Positions 24,651-32,867 of a stretch of 64,000 nucleotides of DNA are shown in pieces (positions within the stretch are counted from its first letter, which is position 1; the number at the start of each line of letters is the position of its first letter). The stretch spans positions 124,001 to 188,000 of the forward strand of contig JAKFWO010000008.1 of assembly GCA_021731815.1 (NCBI GenBank), in the 5' to 3' direction. Position numbers and translations under genes: made by a program. The notes beneath the pieces were generated by a model. The model was not told where the DNA came from, made no database searches, and saw only the letters and a list, made by a program, of their open reading frames with translations. The DNA comes from Hyphomonadaceae bacterium (GTDB taxonomy: Bacteria > Pseudomonadota > Alphaproteobacteria > Caulobacterales > Aquidulcibacteraceae).

Positions 24651-24927
24651 GCTTATGGCCCCGATCGCAGTGGTGCCGGTTCGCCGGCCCGATGCGGTCG
24701 CCAAGCCTTCTGCGCGCAAGGCGGTCAATTCAAACGGCGTCAATGCAAAACGGCGTTGCCTTCTATTGCCAGCCCCGCCATAAGGCGCGCTTCCGCCAGT
24801 CCGGCTGGTCGGTGGTGACTGGCGGTGCCTTGTGATTGAGGGCTCCTGATCACGCCAAAGAGTCGGAATGAGGTCCCGCCGGACCGGACGGGGCTGGTGT
24901 GATCAGGGTTCGATGAACCAAGTCTGT

Positions 24928-25017
24928 GGGCAGGTGGCCGAGTGGTCGAAGGCGCACGCCTGGAACGCGTGTAGACGGGCAACCGTCTCGAGGGTTCGAA
25001 TCCCTCTCTGTCCGCCA
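24928..25017 (+). tRNA. tRNA-Ser (anticodon GGA)
   Basis: The acceptor arms GGGCAGG and TCTGTCC pair with two G-U pairs, followed by G73 and an encoded CCA. The D-arm contains GGCCGAGTGGTCGAAGGC. The anticodon stem CACGC/GCGTG holds the loop CTGGAAC with GGA. The long variable arm (AGACGGGCAACCGTCT) marks a class II serine tRNA. The T-arm is GAGGG-TTCGAAT-CCCTC. A recombinase-like remnant lies directly downstream. Confidence 0.97.
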
Positions 25018-25188
25018 TTCTGGAACACAAATGCGAACGCCGTCCGCCGGTTCCGCGCCCTTCGCTGCAGCCGGCACTCTCAGGAGCTCTTCTTGCGAGC
25101 CAATGATCCGCACCTCGCGCCCCGCGATCTCGACCCGTTGGGCCACAGCCCCGGGGGTGATTCCGCGGCACTCCGCCACCCATCCCAC
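25018..25188 (-). pseudogene. Probable remnant of a serine recombinase C-terminus at tRNA-Ser
   Basis: On the minus strand the frame reads RVEIAGREVRIIGSQEELL and then [12 protein letters not shown], after which it runs into the reverse of the tRNA. This pattern (a beta-rich stretch, IxGSxxxL, then VPxWRT at the very end) is typical of the C-terminus of large serine recombinases that sit beside the tRNA they target; the match is from memory, not a search. Upstream the frame soon loses similarity, and no catalytic serine domain is present, so it is a decayed fragment. It suggests past integration of a mobile element here. Confidence 0.45.
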
Positions 25189-26208: not shown

Positions 26209-26652
26209 ATGAACAAGCTCGTTATTTGTGCTTTCATCGCCATCATTTTCCCGGCCAATGCCAGTGCCAAAACCGCGCCTTATTATGAAGGTCGCTGGCA
26301 GACAAGTTCCGAGACGACGGTATCCGTCACCGCCAAAGTTAATGGTGCAGAACCGCAAAACTCGAAGACAAGTTCGAACAAATTGAATGTTCGAATCTGT
26401 CCCGATTCCAAACGGACGGGGTGGAATTTTGCCTTGGTCCTGCCCATTGGGCTGGCGGTTGGTCACAGTCCGGTGAAGGTCAATGCCGATGGCTCGATCA
26501 CCGCAACGCTGGGCGAGAGGCCGGACGCTGTTCGCTATATGTTGCGGGGGGATCAGAAGCAATTGACCGGAACATTACAAAAGCTGCCAGATGAGAAGAA
26601 CCCGAACCCGCCATCAATCCCCATTTCCTTCGTCCGAACGGGGAAGTGTTGA
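26209..26652 (+). CDS. Small secreted protein of unknown family, paralogue 1
   Basis: The 147-residue product has a Sec signal peptide (residues 1-20, ending NASA) and a mature form beginning KTAPYYEGRW. Shared motifs with the next three genes are ICPDSKRTGWN, LPIGLAVG, VNADGSITAT and a C-terminal RTGKC. The mature chain has exactly two cysteines, Cys64 and the last residue Cys147, which could form a disulfide. The alternating polar/hydrophobic pattern suggests a beta-rich fold, perhaps lipocalin-like. The family is not recognised. AAAGGA lies upstream of the ATG. It is the first of four tandem copies placed before a MacAB-like exporter, so it may be a cargo of that pump (inference). Confidence 0.8.
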   Translation: MNKLVICAFIAIIFPANASAKTAPYYEGRWQTSSETTVSVTAKVNGAEPQNSKTSSNKLNVRICPDSKRTGWNFALVLPIGLAVGHSPVKVNADGSITATLGERPDAVRYMLRGDQKQLTGTLQKLPDEKNPNPPSIPISFVRTGKC

Positions 26653-26748
26653 CAGCCCGATTATGTATCCGAAGTAATGTGGCAAGCCCCTTCGTCATTC
26701 TCAATCACCATGATAAATGTGGATAGGAATTACATGACCTCCCTTGTG

Positions 26749-26772
26749 GCACATGAAGTCGCACATGAAGTC
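26749..26772. repeat. Tandem duplication, 2 x 12 bp
   Basis: Two identical GCACATGAAGTC units lie in the leader of paralogue 2. Confidence 0.85.
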
Positions 26773-26806
26773 GATACGCCTTCATTTTGTTCGGAAACGT
26801 GTAGTT

Positions 26807-27256
26807 ATGAATAGAATTGGTTTTCTTGCACTCATCGCAGCCTTGTGCTCAACCCACGCCAGCGCCAAAACGGCACCCGATTATGAAGGAATCTGGCGAA
26901 CACAGCCTGTCGCGCCGCTCAGCACCTCAAATACCAAAGACAGCGTTACGACCAGGCTGCAGATGAAATTCTCGCCGACGGACATATTGTTACAGATCTG
27001 CCCCGATTCTGGACGCAAGGGGTGGAATTTTGCCGGGCTCCGGCCCGACGGGCAGGTCGTCGGCAGCGCCCGCGCAACGGTCAACACCGATGGCTCGATC
27101 ACGGCGACGATGCGTCAAGATCCCAATTCTGTTCGCTTCCTGTTGCGGGCGAAGCAGAACACATTGTCGGGGACCATGCAGATTCTACCGAGTGAAAGTC
27201 TTCCGGGCGAAATACCGCCAATCCCCATTTCTCTGATTAAAAACGGTAAATGTTGA
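26807..27256 (+). CDS. Small secreted protein of unknown family, paralogue 2
   Basis: The 149-residue product has the same plan: signal peptide to residue 20 (THASA), mature KTAPDYEGIW, ICPDSGRKGWN, VNTDGSITAT, SGTMQILPSES and the C-terminal KNGKC. Cys65 and the terminal Cys149 are kept. It is the most divergent copy in the LPIGLAVG segment (here LRPDGQVVG). ATG 26807 is chosen because it places the signal peptide as in the other copies; an in-frame ATG at 26744 would add 21 residues containing the 12-bp duplication. The ribosome site is weak. It is 154 bp downstream of paralogue 1. Confidence 0.78.
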   Translation: MNRIGFLALIAALCSTHASAKTAPDYEGIWRTQPVAPLSTSNTKDSVTTRLQMKFSPTDILLQICPDSGRKGWNFAGLRPDGQVVGSARATVNTDGSITATMRQDPNSVRFLLRAKQNTLSGTMQILPSESLPGEIPPIPISLIKNGKC

Positions 27257-27309
27257 TGGATCGCAATGGCGCGCAAGATTTCGCTGCCCGTCAAAAGAGG
27301 GCACAGAGA
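27245..27309 (+). repeat. Long direct repeat, copy 1 (65 bp)
   Basis: Sixty-five bases spanning the last codons of paralogue 2 and the leader of paralogue 3 are identical to 27787-27851, the same place one gene further on. The flanking coding sequences have diverged much more. Confidence 0.93.
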
Positions 27310-27342
27310 CGCGCCCTGGTTGCCTTCAAGAAGGATGCGCTC

Positions 27343-27798
27343 ATGAATAAGCTGGCTTTCGTTCTGTCCATCGCCATCCTGCTCTCAACCAGCGCCAGTG
27401 CCAAAACCGCGCCTTATTATGAAGGCCGCTGGCGTGCAGCGCACGCTGCTGCGATCACGAGCTCGGAGACCAAAGGTAACACAACGATAACGAGAACAAC
27501 GAAGACCTCATCGAAACTGGCCATACAGATCTGCCCCAATTCCAAAAAGACGGGCTCCAATCTCGCTTTGATTCTGCCGATCGGCCTGGCCGTTGGCGGC
27601 ACGCCGGTGAAGGTCAATCCCGATGGCTCGATTACCGCAACGATAGATGACGGATCTCAAGGGGTGCGGTTCGCATTGCGCCAAAACCCGCAGCAGAACC
27701 AGCCGCAATTATCCGGCACGATGGGGTCGAGCCCGACCGAGAGCGATCCGAATCCGCCCCGGATCCCCGTCACCTTCATTCGAACTGGTAAATGTTGA
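27343..27798 (+). CDS. Small secreted protein of unknown family, paralogue 3
   Basis: The 151-residue product has a signal peptide to residue 20 (TSASA), mature KTAPYYEGRW, ICPNSKKTGSN, LPIGLAVG, VNPDGSITAT and the C-terminal RTGKC. Cysteines are Cys64 and Cys151. A Gln/Asn-rich insert (NPQQNQPQ, near 115-122) is unique to this copy. The ATG at 27343 has AAGGA 7 bp upstream. It lies 86 bp after paralogue 2 and 85 bp before paralogue 4, inside a perfect 65-bp flanking repeat, which points to a tandem duplication. Confidence 0.8.
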   Translation: MNKLAFVLSIAILLSTSASAKTAPYYEGRWRAAHAAAITSSETKGNTTITRTTKTSSKLAIQICPNSKKTGSNLALILPIGLAVGGTPVKVNPDGSITATIDDGSQGVRFALRQNPQQNQPQLSGTMGSSPTESDPNPPRIPVTFIRTGKC

Positions 27799-27851
27799 TG
27801 GATCGCAATGGCGCGCAAGATTTCGCTGCCCGTCAAAAGAGGGCACAGAGA
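27787..27851 (+). repeat. Long direct repeat, copy 2 (65 bp)
   Basis: Identical to 27245-27309. It covers the end of paralogue 3 and the leader of paralogue 4. Spacing between the two copies is 542 bp, one gene unit. Confidence 0.93.
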
Positions 27852-27883
27852 AGCGCGCGGGTTTCCCTTACGAAGGATGCCCC

Positions 27884-28327
27884 GTGAGCAAGCCTGTTGT
27901 CGTTATTTTCATGGCGATCCTGTTCTCGAACAGTGCCAGTGCTGGAGGCGCCCCGCATTATGAAGGCCGCTGGCATGTGGCTTCCTCAGAGCCAATCGTA
28001 ACCTCGCAGAAGAAAGGTAATGTAACGCGAACAACAACGACGAGGCTCTCCTCGGACCTGAAAATAAAAATCTGCCCTAATTCCAAGAAGACAGGTTGGA
28101 ACCTTGCTTTGTTATTGCCGATTGGCCTGGCTGTAGGCAGCACCCCGATTATCGTCAATAAGGATGGCTCGATCACCGCAGTGCAAAAGGACGGATCGAA
28201 GCGTTTACATTATCATTTGCTGAGGAACCAGAACCATTTGTCGGGGACCATACGGTTCAACCCCAATGAGAGCAATCCAAACCCTGTCGTTACCCCGGTC
28301 AGCTTCGTTCGTACCGGAGGATGTTAA
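27884..28327 (+). CDS. Small secreted protein of unknown family, paralogue 4
   Basis: The 147-residue product has a signal peptide to residue 20 (SNSASA), mature GGAPHYEGRW, ICPNSKKTGWN, LPIGLAVG, VNKDGSITAV and the C-terminal RTGGC. Cysteines are Cys64 and Cys147. The start is GTG at 27884, preceded by GAAGGA. This copy differs from the others in losing the KTAP mature start (here GGAP) and in its basic middle part. It lies about 150 bp upstream of the membrane-fusion protein gene on the same strand and may be co-transcribed with the exporter. Confidence 0.78.
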   Translation: MSKPVVVIFMAILFSNSASAGGAPHYEGRWHVASSEPIVTSQKKGNVTRTTTTRLSSDLKIKICPNSKKTGWNLALLLPIGLAVGSTPIIVNKDGSITAVQKDGSKRLHYHLLRNQNHLSGTIRFNPNESNPNPVVTPVSFVRTGGC

Positions 28328-28481
28328 GGGTCGGATTCTGCGCAGTTGATTTGGGGTATTGGCGGAGCGTTTCAGGCATGGCGGATGGACTCATTCAACG
28401 ATGCGAGGCACGCGCCCGGTGATTGAAGACCCCAAAGAGCATAATCCTTCGGGCTTCGGCCGCTCTTTCCTCGGGGCGGGC

Positions 28482-29741
28482 ATGGACGCGCCACTGGATC
28501 CACGCATCAAGCGGCTGCGACGCTTGCGCCTTTGGGGTGGCTTTGGCATGGCCGGGCTTCTGGGCGTGGCCGCGATCGCTGTGCTGCTGGGCCAGCGCGG
28601 CGGCGAACTGGTGGTGTCCGCCAAGGATATCACCATCGCCACGGCCATGCGCGGGGTTATCCAGGAAGAAACCAGCCTGCTCGCCCGGGTCGAGCCCTTG
28701 GACGCGGTGCTGATCTCGGCCACTGAAAGCGGTCAAATCCAGGAGATATTTGTGCGCGACGGGGCGCGGGTCGCTGCGGGCACGCCTTTGTTACGCCTCA
28801 GCAATCCTGAACGCGAGCTGGCCATCAATCAGGAAATCGGCCGCGAGAAAGCCGGGATCGCCGCGCTGTTCGCGCAAGAGGGCCAATTGCAGGAACGCGC
28901 CATCGATGAAGGCGAAGCGCTGCTCGAAGCGGAGTTCGCACTCGCTGAGCTGAAAACCCGCCTGTCCCAGCGCGAGGAGCTGCTCAAACGCGGCTTCGCG
29001 CCGCTCCAGCAGGTGGAATCGTTGCGGGCGGAACTGGCGTTGAAGGAAAAATTGCTGGCCCGCCGCCAGGAATTGGCCAAACAGCAGGCGCAACTGCGCC
29101 GCGAGCAAGCCTCGAGCCTTGCGGGCCAACGCCGCGACGCGGAAGCGAATCTGGCAAGGCTTCGCCAGCGTCTGGGGAGTTTCATGGTGCGCGCCCCGCG
29201 CGAGGGCGTGGTGCTCGGTCTGCCGGGGGAATTGGGACAGGTCATCGCGCAAGGCAGCGTGCTCTCACGAATTCGGGGCGGGCGGGGCGTTGAGCTCCGT
29301 GGTGGCATCGATGAGCGCAGCGTGGGCAAGTTGAAATTGGGCCAGGCAGCACGGCTCGATCTCGGCGGGCAGGCCATCGAGCTCAAAGTCACCGGCATTG
29401 CGAGCCAGATCGTGAACGGCACCGCCGAGATACGCTTGCGCTTCTTGTCAGAAGTGCCACCCGATGGTTTGGAAGTCGGGCGAGCCCTGCAGGTCCGCAT
29501 GCCGCTGGGCGAGCCCCTGGAGGGAATCATCGTTTCAAATTCTCCCTTTCTGGAAACCAGCGGTGGTTATTGGGCCTTCGTGTTCGACAAGACAGGCGCG
29601 ACGGCCAGGCGCCGACCCATTCGGGTTGCGCAGCGTTCGTCCAGTTCGGCGCTGATCGCCGAGGGGGTGGCTGCGGGCGAGCGCCTCATCGTGTCGAGCT
29701 ATGAGGGATATGAACGGGTCAAACGGATACGGGTGCAATGA
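28482..29741 (+). CDS. HlyD/MacA-like periplasmic adaptor
   Basis: The 419-residue membrane-fusion protein has a short cytoplasmic start (MDAPLDPRIKRLRRLRLW), one TM helix (about 19-37), a first lipoyl half (SGQIQEIFVRDGARV), a long coiled coil (about 95-230, rich in Glu, Arg, Leu and Gln), a second lipoyl half (RAPREGVVLGLPGELGQVI) and a beta-barrel region. This is the plan of MacA-type adaptors for ABC pumps. ATG 28482 is preferred because it puts a short charged start before the TM helix; ATG 28401 would add 27 residues. The stop overlaps the ATPase start (ATGA). Confidence 0.87.
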   Translation: MDAPLDPRIKRLRRLRLWGGFGMAGLLGVAAIAVLLGQRGGELVVSAKDITIATAMRGVIQEETSLLARVEPLDAVLISATESGQIQEIFVRDGARVAAGTPLLRLSNPERELAINQEIGREKAGIAALFAQEGQLQERAIDEGEALLEAEFALAELKTRLSQREELLKRGFAPLQQVESLRAELALKEKLLARRQELAKQQAQLRREQASSLAGQRRDAEANLARLRQRLGSFMVRAPREGVVLGLPGELGQVIAQGSVLSRIRGGRGVELRGGIDERSVGKLKLGQAARLDLGGQAIELKVTGIASQIVNGTAEIRLRFLSEVPPDGLEVGRALQVRMPLGEPLEGIIVSNSPFLETSGGYWAFVFDKTGATARRRPIRVAQRSSSSALIAEGVAAGERLIVSSYEGYERVKRIRVQ

Positions 29742-30427
29742 ACGCCATCGCCATCGAATTAACCGAAATTTCCAAGACATTTCTGGCCGACGATGTGCAG
29801 ACCTCGGCGGTCGATGGCGTCAGCCTGACCGTCCAGACTGGCGAGTTTCTGGCGATTACGGGGCCTTCGGGCTGCGGAAAATCGACCTTGCTCAGCATTC
29901 TGGGCCTGTTGGAAACGCCCGACCGGGGCAATGTGCGCATTCTGGGTGAGGATTGCACCGCCAAAAACGAGAACGAATTGGCGCTTTTCCGCCGTGGGCG
30001 CGTCAGCTTCGTGTTTCAGAGTTTCAACCTGATCGACGACATGTCCATTGTCGAAAATACGGAAATCGGCCTGAAATATCGCGGCGTGAAGCCCGCTTTG
30101 CGGCGCAAAATCGCGCTCGACATGCTCGATTGGGTGGGACTGGCGCACCGCGCCAAACACCGGCCCGGCCAGCTCTCGGGTGGCCAGCAACAACGCGCCG
30201 CCTTGGCCAGAGCTCTCGCCAGCGACGCCCGGCTCATTCTGGCCGACGAGCCCACGGGAAATCTCGACAGCAAATCGGGCGAAGCGGTGATGGATCTGCT
30301 CGGCTCGCTGCCTGCTCGCGGCAAAACGCTGATCGTGGTGACCCATTCGCTTGAGCTCGCTTCGCGCGCTACTCGCCGCATCGCCATGCTGGATGGACGG
30401 CTCGAGGTCGGCAATGATTCGGTTTGA
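29738..30427 (+). CDS. ABC transporter ATPase, MacB/LolD type
   Basis: The 229-residue cytoplasmic ATPase has Walker A GPSGCGKST (near 42-50), a Q-loop FQSFNLI, the signature LSGGQQQR, Walker B LILADEPTG and the switch His in VVTHSLE. The ADEPTGNLDS sequence is typical of the MacB/LolD/FtsE group that powers mechanotransmission pumps. It overlaps the adaptor gene by 4 bp and the permease gene by 14 bp, so the three are translated as a unit. Confidence 0.93.
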   Translation: MNAIAIELTEISKTFLADDVQTSAVDGVSLTVQTGEFLAITGPSGCGKSTLLSILGLLETPDRGNVRILGEDCTAKNENELALFRRGRVSFVFQSFNLIDDMSIVENTEIGLKYRGVKPALRRKIALDMLDWVGLAHRAKHRPGQLSGGQQQRAALARALASDARLILADEPTGNLDSKSGEAVMDLLGSLPARGKTLIVVTHSLELASRATRRIAMLDGRLEVGNDSV

Positions 30428-32867
30428 TCGCTTACGGTGGAGCGCCGGCGCGGCGTTTTTCAATGCCGTCCTGGCCATCGCCGTCGCTTTGCTGGTGGGC
30501 AGTCTTATCCTCTACGAAGCGTCGTTCAATCAGACAATCGCGCCAGATGGTGACGTCTATCTGGTGGGGATGAAGTCGGAATTGCCGGGCATCCCCGCCA
30601 GCGTGATGGGCGGATCGAACGACGCCGTCGCCGTAGAGGTGCGCAATAAGCGGCCCGACTGGATCGTGGCGCGCATCAGCAAGGGGGAATATCGGGAAGT
30701 TGGGGCCGAAGGGCGAAAAAGTACGGCTGAGGTGTTCAGCGCTGACGAAGAATTGCCCAAGGTGCTGAAGATCAGGGCGATCGCAGGCGACCCGGGCACG
30801 GCCCTTGGCCTCGCAGACGGCATCGTGCTGACGCGAGGCGAGGCGATCAGGCTGTTCGGCCGTGTGGATGTTTTGGGCTCCGCGCTCCGGCTGGACGAAA
30901 CTGAAGTCACCGTGCGCGCGATCATCGAAGATTGGCCGCGCAACAGCCAATATGCCCAACACCGCATCCTGCTCTCTGCGCGCAATGGCTCGAGCGCGTT
31001 TGCAGCGCTGGATCGGCCAGATGTCGAAGGGGTTGCCGAGCAATTCGGTGAGCCCGCCGGTGCCAAGGTGGTCACCCTCAGCGTCATGACATTCGGCGAT
31101 GTGGAAGTGCTGGTACGTGCCAAGGGCCCGCGAGCACAGGTCGAGGCCGATATTGCGGCAATTGCTGCAAAAGCATCGACCTTCACCGATGGCTTCGAAA
31201 TCCTCAAGCGTAGCCCATATCCGCTCAACATCGTCCGTTTGAATTTGCGGACCGAACCCGGGCTTGTGCTGCGAAAGTTCCACACGGATCTGGGCGCGCT
31301 CCTGACCCTGGCGCTCCTGGCGCTTCTGGGCATTCTGAGCGCGGCACTGGGCATTGTCAGCCTCGGCGTCGCGCAAGCGGCGCGACGGGCGCGCGAAGTC
31401 GCCGTGCTGCGCGCTTACGGTGCGAGGGCGGCGGAGCTGACCAGCGCTGAATTGGCACGCTATTCGTTGGCCGGCGCCCTCTCGGGCTTGTGCGCCGTTG
31501 CGCTTGGTGCAGCGCTCGCGCCGAGTTTTGGTGCCGTGCTCGACCGGACGCTCCCTTCTTTATTGTCGTTGCCCAATCTGGCCATCGCCATGCTGACAGG
31601 TGCCCTGGGCGGCTCGATCTGTGCCATCGCGCCGTGCTCGGTTCTGGCGAGCGGCAAGCCGCTGGACGCCCTGCGGGGGCGTGAGGGGAGCCATTCTCGC
31701 CTTGGCCTGGTGCGCGCCTCACTGATCGTTGTCCAGATTGCCCTGGCGACGGTGTCCGCGACTTTCGCCCTGGCGCTTGGCGCGCAATATGCACATAATG
31801 TGGATCCCGACCGGCTGGGTTTCACAGCCCCAGGCCTGGCAACGGCCACGCAAAACCCGTTGCCCGGCGCCACCGACGCGATGGGTTGGCCGCAATTGGA
31901 AGCGCTGCGGGCGCGCGCCGCAACTGATCCCAGGATCGTCGCCTTCGCAAGCGCGGCTGCGGGGCCCCGCAGCAATACGAGTTCCCAGGCCAGCTTGTTG
32001 CCCGGCGGGCGCACTGACGCTCTCGAGCTCAATGCGGTTGGAATTTCAACTGACTTTTTTCGCACCCTTGGCACCCCGCTTCTGGTTGGACGGGAATGCC
32101 AGGCGAGTGAGCTTGGCAACGAATTTCCGACCGGCGGCGAGCAATATGCCGTGCTGAATCGGAAGGCGGCGCTGCTTTTGGGCTTTGCTTCCCCAGCGAA
32201 TGCCGTGGGCGCCTTGATTCCTTCTGCGGATTTGCCCGCTCCCACAAGGATCATCGGCGTGGTGGGCGATCTTCGGTTGTTCGATCTGCGACAGAGCGAA
32301 AATGTTGCGCGAATTTTTTATTGTCAGAAGGGGCGGCATAGCAGTCTCTTTGCCCGCGTCGCGCCCGGCGTGGATCCGGCGGTTGCCATGTCAGACTTGT
32401 TGACGCCATTTTCTGCAAATGCGGCGCGGGACGCCGAGAGTGTCACGACCATCCTCAATCGGACATTTCGCGATGTCTCGCGCCTGCTCGCCATAGTGGG
32501 GGTTGCTGCGGTGCTGAACCTGCTGACGGCCGCTTCGGGCCTGATCGGGCTCGCCATGCGGCTGACGATGGGTCTGGGCTTCGAAGCCAGTGTGCGGAAG
32601 GCCTTTGGTGCCTCGAATGCGCAGGTGCTGTCGCTGCTCGCCCAAAAACTGGGGCCATGGGTCGGGCTTGGCGCGATTGTCGGAATTGGTGGCGCTGTGG
32701 GGGGTGCCAGGGAATATCTGGCGCGCTTCCCCGATCCGGTCGGGTTTAACGCGCTGGGGCCGCTGGCCGTTGCGGCCCTGATTACGCTGATCTTTGCGGC
32801 CGTTGTGTTGTTCAACGGGGCCATGCTGGCGCGCCTGAAACCAAATGCCATCCTGCGCGTGACATGA
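30414..32867 (+). CDS. FtsX-like ABC permease (MacB-type, duplicated)
   Basis: The 817-residue inner-membrane protein has an N-terminal TM helix (about 12-35), a periplasmic MacB-like domain (about 40-280), three TM helices (about 290-415), a further TM near 440-460, a second periplasmic domain and three final TM helices (about 690-815) with an FtsX-type SVRKAFGASNAQVL. The first cluster has the matching VAVLRAYGARAAEL segment. The two-half build is as in large MacB/YknZ-like permeases. It has no ATPase domain, which is encoded by the preceding gene. No outer-membrane channel gene is nearby, so a TolC-like partner would come from elsewhere. Confidence 0.85.
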   Translation: MIRFDRLRWSAGAAFFNAVLAIAVALLVGSLILYEASFNQTIAPDGDVYLVGMKSELPGIPASVMGGSNDAVAVEVRNKRPDWIVARISKGEYREVGAEGRKSTAEVFSADEELPKVLKIRAIAGDPGTALGLADGIVLTRGEAIRLFGRVDVLGSALRLDETEVTVRAIIEDWPRNSQYAQHRILLSARNGSSAFAALDRPDVEGVAEQFGEPAGAKVVTLSVMTFGDVEVLVRAKGPRAQVEADIAAIAAKASTFTDGFEILKRSPYPLNIVRLNLRTEPGLVLRKFHTDLGALLTLALLALLGILSAALGIVSLGVAQAARRAREVAVLRAYGARAAELTSAELARYSLAGALSGLCAVALGAALAPSFGAVLDRTLPSLLSLPNLAIAMLTGALGGSICAIAPCSVLASGKPLDALRGREGSHSRLGLVRASLIVVQIALATVSATFALALGAQYAHNVDPDRLGFTAPGLATATQNPLPGATDAMGWPQLEALRARAATDPRIVAFASAAAGPRSNTSSQASLLPGGRTDALELNAVGISTDFFRTLGTPLLVGRECQASELGNEFPTGGEQYAVLNRKAALLLGFASPANAVGALIPSADLPAPTRIIGVVGDLRLFDLRQSENVARIFYCQKGRHSSLFARVAPGVDPAVAMSDLLTPFSANAARDAESVTTILNRTFRDVSRLLAIVGVAAVLNLLTAASGLIGLAMRLTMGLGFEASVRKAFGASNAQVLSLLAQKLGPWVGLGAIVGIGGAVGGAREYLARFPDPVGFNALGPLAVAALITLIFAAVVLFNGAMLARLKPNAILRVT

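Follow-up and report, generated by a model that had tools for sequence, protein, structure and literature searches.

MacAB-type pumps collect their substrates in the periplasm; the standard example is the enterotoxin STII, which is exported by Sec and disulfide-bonded, and the peptides named as substrates of MacB-type pumps are small, 42 amino acids for SDP and 70 for AS-48 (PMC5985334). The type VII transporter YbbAP, which has a separate ATPase and a duplicated permease, works with a dedicated Sec-exported periplasmic protein, TesA (PMC12646458), and the darobactin exporter DarBCD has separate genes for its adaptor, ATPase and permease of about 800 residues. Here we compare with these systems seven consecutive intact genes, all on the + strand, at positions 26209–32867 of a 64,000-nucleotide stretch (the window) from contig JAKFWO010000008.1 of a Hyphomonadaceae bacterium. 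The first four, p1–p4, encode small secreted paralogues, and the remaining three the adaptor, ATPase and FtsX-type permease of a putative ATP-binding cassette (ABC) exporter. We favour, at a probability of about 35%, the reading that p1–p4 are cargo of the co-encoded exporter in a lineage-specific operon.

The open reading frames of p1 (26209–26652, 147 residues), p2 (26807–27256, 149 residues) and p3 (27343–27798, 151 residues) begin with ATG, and that of p4 (27884–28327, 147 residues) with GTG. The proteins are 39–59% identical over their full length, and a search of the whole genome with p1 recovers the other three at E-values of 1e-33 to 5e-45, which excludes similarity by chance; the genome holds no further copies. 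The motifs YEG[RI]W, ICPxS and DGSITA and a cysteine as the last residue occur in all four. Each begins with a short segment, positive and hydrophobic, that ends in ASA, which the A-x-A rule makes a signal-peptide cleavage site; the predicted cut lies between ASA and KTAP or between ASA and GGAP (after residue 20 in p1). There is no lipobox in any of the four and no cysteine at the cleavage site, so they are not lipoproteins. The mature proteins, of 127–131 residues and 13.7–14.0 kDa, are basic (isoelectric point 9.6–10.2) and contain exactly two cysteines, at position 64/65 and at the last residue, between which (Cys64 and the C-terminal cysteine) we infer a disulfide. The preliminary description of this DNA had reported four tandem secreted paralogues with these motifs and two cysteines; all of this is borne out, the two cysteines being those of the mature proteins, and the p1 and p2 precursors each carry one extra cysteine within the signal peptide.

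No family could be assigned to p1–p4, as had been said of them at the outset. Searches of Pfam and NCBIfam gave no family match (aRib, at an E-value of 0.02, is below cut-off), nor did searches of PADLOC, which overall yielded only generic ATPase matches, or of the sequences in the PDB; matches in PHROGs were fragmentary, with E-values of 0.005 or worse. No known housekeeping periplasmic family emerged as a home for them. One candidate was DUF2147 (PF09917), small and common, whose members likewise have a signal peptide and a similar G-x-W start. Its profile gave no Pfam match at E-values up to 10, the profile–profile comparison reached an hhalign probability of 26% and was confident only over the signal peptide and GRW motif (32 columns), and the genome's own DUF2147 matches are located away from p1–p4. 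Credible homologues were absent from the other genomes searched of the taxonomic family (60 counting its own), from 398 genomes of the order and 385 of the class, and from plasmids and phages. They were likewise absent from the GTDB contig collection, scanned with a profile of the paralogues, and from viral contigs, both searched with a strict pattern prefilter that distant relatives could escape; a scan of the contig collection with the permease, under the same limit, gave no relative either. Weak genome matches at E-values of 0.001–0.05 look out-of-frame or low-complexity on inspection, and one at 1.1e-4, in one of the 385 class genomes, was set aside because of its unlikely frame. We conclude from these searches and profile comparisons that p1–p4 are an orphan protein family and not members of DUF2147.

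The four-sequence alignment was submitted to AlphaFold2 twice, with p1 and with p3 as the target. Both runs arranged ten strands in the same order, in a small antiparallel barrel, with pLDDT (predicted local distance difference test) scores of 71.8 and 71.3; in each run a single model of the five exceeded 70. Among solved structures the closest are avidin, streptavidin, designed ligand-binding barrels, a bacterial lipocalin and the barrel of PvdP. Structural re-alignment gave Z-scores of 9–10 (up to 10.1, with a root-mean-square deviation of 3.5 Å over 103 residues), and Foldseek an E-value of 0.018 at best and a TM-score of about 0.45. The likeness to avidin and lipocalin lies in this predicted small antiparallel barrel, but structural identity is only 5–16% and p1–p4 have a variable segment around residues 33–58. 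A calycin-like barrel is, with moderate confidence, the best reading of the predicted fold.

The copies appear to be old and maintained. In all six pairs the rate of nonsynonymous substitution (dN, 0.33–0.60) is lower than that of synonymous substitution (dS, 0.86–1.59). The overall dN/dS of about 0.35–0.46 is a whole-gene average, rough because dS is near or above 1 and close to saturation, and site-specific selection is beyond the reach of four sequences. Third codon positions are the least conserved between the copies, and the most variable segment, p1 against the others, spans alignment columns 24–58. These values indicate four functional proteins under average purifying selection after old duplications. 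The suggestion that the expansion reflects an arms race is unsupported, because dN is below dS in every pair.

The adaptor gene (28401–29741; an alternative ATG start at 28482 is possible) follows p4, and after it come the ATPase gene (29738–30427) and that of the 817-residue permease (30414–32867, ATG at 30414). From p1 to the adaptor the intergenic gaps are 154, 86, 85 and 73 nt, the last measured from the end of p4 to the adaptor's first ATG; adaptor and ATPase genes overlap by 4 nt, ATPase and permease genes by 14 nt. No gap in the run contains a + strand terminator-like site: those of the region all lie within coding sequence, in numbers not above those of shuffled sequences. As the genes share a strand, are at most 154 nt apart or overlap and have no terminator-like site between them, the layout makes a single operon likely. 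The glmS gene is next, from 33202.

An adaptor, an ABC ATPase and an FtsX permease running with the paralogues had been proposed from the start, and with gene limits refined all three are recovered above their Pfam cut-offs: HlyD_3 for the adaptor (50.8 against 22.2 bits), ABC_tran for the ATPase (115.3 against 25) and FtsX for the permease (29.7 against 25.5). The three genes are adjacent, as is expected of a type VII tripartite exporter. In NCBIfam, the best match of the adaptor, of the HlyD/RND_mfp superfamily and DarC-like, is RND_mfp, followed by DarC; that of the ATPase, in the DarD/MacB/YbbA/LolD group, is DarD, followed by MacB; and that of the permease is the ADOP model, with MacB and LolE marginal. 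Since all of these matches but RND_mfp fall below the curated cut-offs, the exporter is a divergent member of its class. By gene order and profile matches it is a type VII (MacB/FtsX superfamily) tripartite ABC exporter, a known class, with a permease of two FtsX modules and about 8 hydrophobic segments that is distantly related to ADOP, DarB and MacB. The operon includes no gene for an outer-membrane channel; elsewhere in the genome there is one TolC-family (OEP) protein, whose two matching halves lie in one open frame.

Comparison with the described systems places the exporter close to several and inside none. It shares with DarBCD (NF038007, NF038008 and NF038010) the separate genes and the size of the permease, and DarC and DarD are among the best NCBIfam matches of its adaptor and ATPase; their scores are nevertheless 75.3 bits against a cut-off of 450 and 219.5 against 375 and the permease has no DarB match, so that membership is rejected; the segment described also has secreted proteins as neighbours and no radical SAM enzyme. 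With MacAB–TolC it has in common the adaptor, the MacB-class ATPase and the FtsX permease, whose first module matches MacB in the PDB at an E-value of 0.006. MacB, however, is one fused chain that dimerises; the separate ATPase and the tandem duplication in the permease rule out the MacB family proper. The resemblance to YbbAP–TesA lies in a separate ATPase, a permease duplicated within one chain and Sec-exported proteins as possible periplasmic partners, but YbbP has 10 transmembrane helices, TesA is a hydrolase and not a barrel, an adaptor is present here as well, and the ATPase scores 188 bits against a YbbA cut-off of 336. Two FtsX modules per chain recall the ADOP duplicated permeases (TIGR03434), which match at 116.8 bits over residues 241–797, far under the cut-off of 622.3; a literature search on these permeases found nothing specific. 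By its exporter model, TIGR03608, a system of the lactococcin 972 type was also rejected, the ATPase reaching 198.1 bits against a cut-off of 254.85.

That p1–p4 are cargo is argued from the operon layout and by analogy with MacAB. Sec would deliver the four proteins to the periplasm, where the signal peptide would be removed after ASA and the two cysteines would then pair. The ATPase–permease–adaptor assembly would dock on the TolC-family channel encoded elsewhere in the genome and move p1–p4 over the outer membrane by mechanotransmission. Within this scheme we infer co-transcription, the disulfide, the barrel fold (with moderate confidence) and docking on TolC, all four. Several points weigh against it. 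The mature proteins exceed the known peptide substrates of MacB-type pumps in length, and as folded barrels they might not fit through the channel of the adaptor. The pairing of paralogues and exporter stands at a single locus, which makes comparative linkage impossible, and p1–p4-like proteins are absent from ten homologous exporter cassettes examined, so the exporter class does not depend on them. Base composition further suggests that the two halves may have different origins: G+C at third codon positions (GC3) is 0.60–0.67 in p1–p4 and 0.71–0.75 in the exporter, or 0.71–0.77 when glmS and an upstream gene are taken with it. The sequence fits cargo, partner or coincidence alike. It is decidedly unlikely that the genes form a two-step module in which a duplicated-permease type VII exporter releases folded, disulfide-closed barrels of about 14 kDa from a four-copy cargo family. 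The possible new secretion module of the preliminary description is one reading among several, resting on a single locus, and the interpretation as a whole is partly supported. Any novelty would lie in the combination, at one locus, of an orphan family with a divergent exporter of a known kind.

The exporter has distant relatives. None of 60 relatives has a permease match at an E-value of 1e-15, but eight of the 398 genomes of the order do, at 26–32% identity, and in all eight the adaptor, ATPase and permease genes are adjacent. Next to most of these eight cassettes a response regulator and a kinase are encoded divergently; the neighbours were named by reading the sequence, with a profile search for one cassette only, L046. 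Cassettes L047–L053 mostly come with a membrane kinase-like protein and a divergent regulator whose sequence ends in RRMEKHGL; the window copy has no such pair. A Sphingomonas plasmid carries a homologous cassette together with TolC, a DUF2807 protein and a two-component system, and the Acetobacter tropicalis plasmid pAtBDGP1A (L114:3854-11296) carries one with a two-component system, TolC, a 78-residue open reading frame and a radical SAM protein. Identity between the window proteins and those of Acetobacter is 25% for the permease, 28% for the adaptor and 52% for the ATPase, and the permeases on the two plasmids match DarB at 62–67 bits of the 700 needed. Beside the closest homologue of the permease, the segment L046:4707-6201 encodes a secreted protein of 125 residues that has a GRW start and a protein with a HELGH motif, neither of them matching Pfam. 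This arrangement resembles the window's in style and not in sequence, and the GRW protein (L046:4707-5084) has no detectable similarity to p1–p4. Among the genomes compared, the exporter class is found in varied contexts and its pairing with p1–p4 is peculiar to this window.

These varied neighbours bear on the alternative that survives best, which we judge somewhat unlikely: that p1–p4, as an orphan secreted family, were left behind at a tRNA-Ser gene by a mobile element and merely adjoin an exporter with an unrelated substrate. The homologous exporters have other neighbours, the two-component systems, TolC, DUF2807 protein and radical SAM protein, and the difference in base composition points the same way. 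So does the DNA upstream. A C-terminal remnant of a serine recombinase (24850–25026, approximate limits, − strand), 58% identical to the C-terminus of a Brevundimonas recombinase, overlaps tRNA-Ser(gga) at 24928–25017; from it a gene-poor stretch extends to 26.2 kb, and the G+C content between 25.5 and 28.5 kb is 51–58%, against 59–67% in the surroundings. The recombinase remnant at tRNA-Ser and the low G+C of the paralogues suggest acquired DNA, and it is plausible that the paralogue region came with a now decayed mobile element. A duplicated attachment site was looked for, but the 3′ end of the tRNA-Ser is not repeated elsewhere in the window, and conservation upstream of glmS in relatives is too low to define an insertion by synteny. 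Against mere coincidence stand the common direction of the two halves, the 73-nt gap with no terminator-like site, and the relatives searched, which have neither the paralogues nor the permease, so that both halves are local acquisitions or inventions.

We consider it unlikely that p1–p4 are periplasmic ligand-binding barrels, alike to lipocalin or avidin in shape and not by descent, which stay in the cell, bind a small compound, either hydrophobic or peptidic, and pass it to the exporter, as TesA works with YbbAP, so that only the ligand exits. The precedent of YbbAP, a type VII system with a duplicated permease and a dedicated Sec-exported partner (PMC12646458), argues for such a role, as do the recurrence of the barrel in both AlphaFold2 runs and the kind of structures nearest to it, and four divergent copies could correspond to four ligands. 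The fold is, however, only moderately confident, a barrel shape alone is no proof of ligand binding, and the homologous exporters lack any such partner. Our literature search on calycin barrels beside ABC exporters found nothing specific.

Lactococcin 972 is a Sec-exported bacteriocin encoded next to a MacB-like ABC unit. By analogy, p1–p4 might be antibacterial proteins for which the ABC unit provides export, self-protection or both, a reading that could draw on their small, basic, two-cysteine, secreted character, on the good, though below-cut-off, ATPase score with the model of the lactococcin 972-group exporter (198 bits), on the small open reading frame and maturase-like radical SAM protein beside the Acetobacter exporter, and on the protection of producers by YknXYZ and the AS-48 pump (PMC5985334), but which is very improbable, for p1–p4 have no sequence link to any bacteriocin family in Pfam or NCBIfam, no separate immunity gene was recognised, and the four copies are under average purifying selection. 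The Acetobacter protein itself resembles maturases of ribosomally synthesised and post-translationally modified peptides, and a cluster of that type is possible there.

The spacers between the paralogues carry a further feature. Those between p2 and p3 (27257–27342, + strand) and between p3 and p4 (27799–27883, + strand) are near-copies, 92% identical over 85 bp, whereas the flanking genes are only 60–67% identical in DNA. Both share an identical run of 65 nt, which starts within the last 12 coding bases (27245–27342 and 27787–27883). The sequence has no further occurrence in the genome, and an RNA element was rejected because it folds no better than shuffled sequences. The repetition could reflect either recent gene conversion or a constrained control element.

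Little is known about what type VII ABC exporters transport, and a candidate substrate family physically linked to such an exporter is a useful lead. Whether cargo or partner, p1–p4 form an orphan family of predicted barrel proteins, for which the searches gave no homologue. Were they ligand-binding partners, they would add another kind of periplasmic partner to TesA; were they cargo, the size limit for substrates released by such pumps would rise from peptides to folded proteins.

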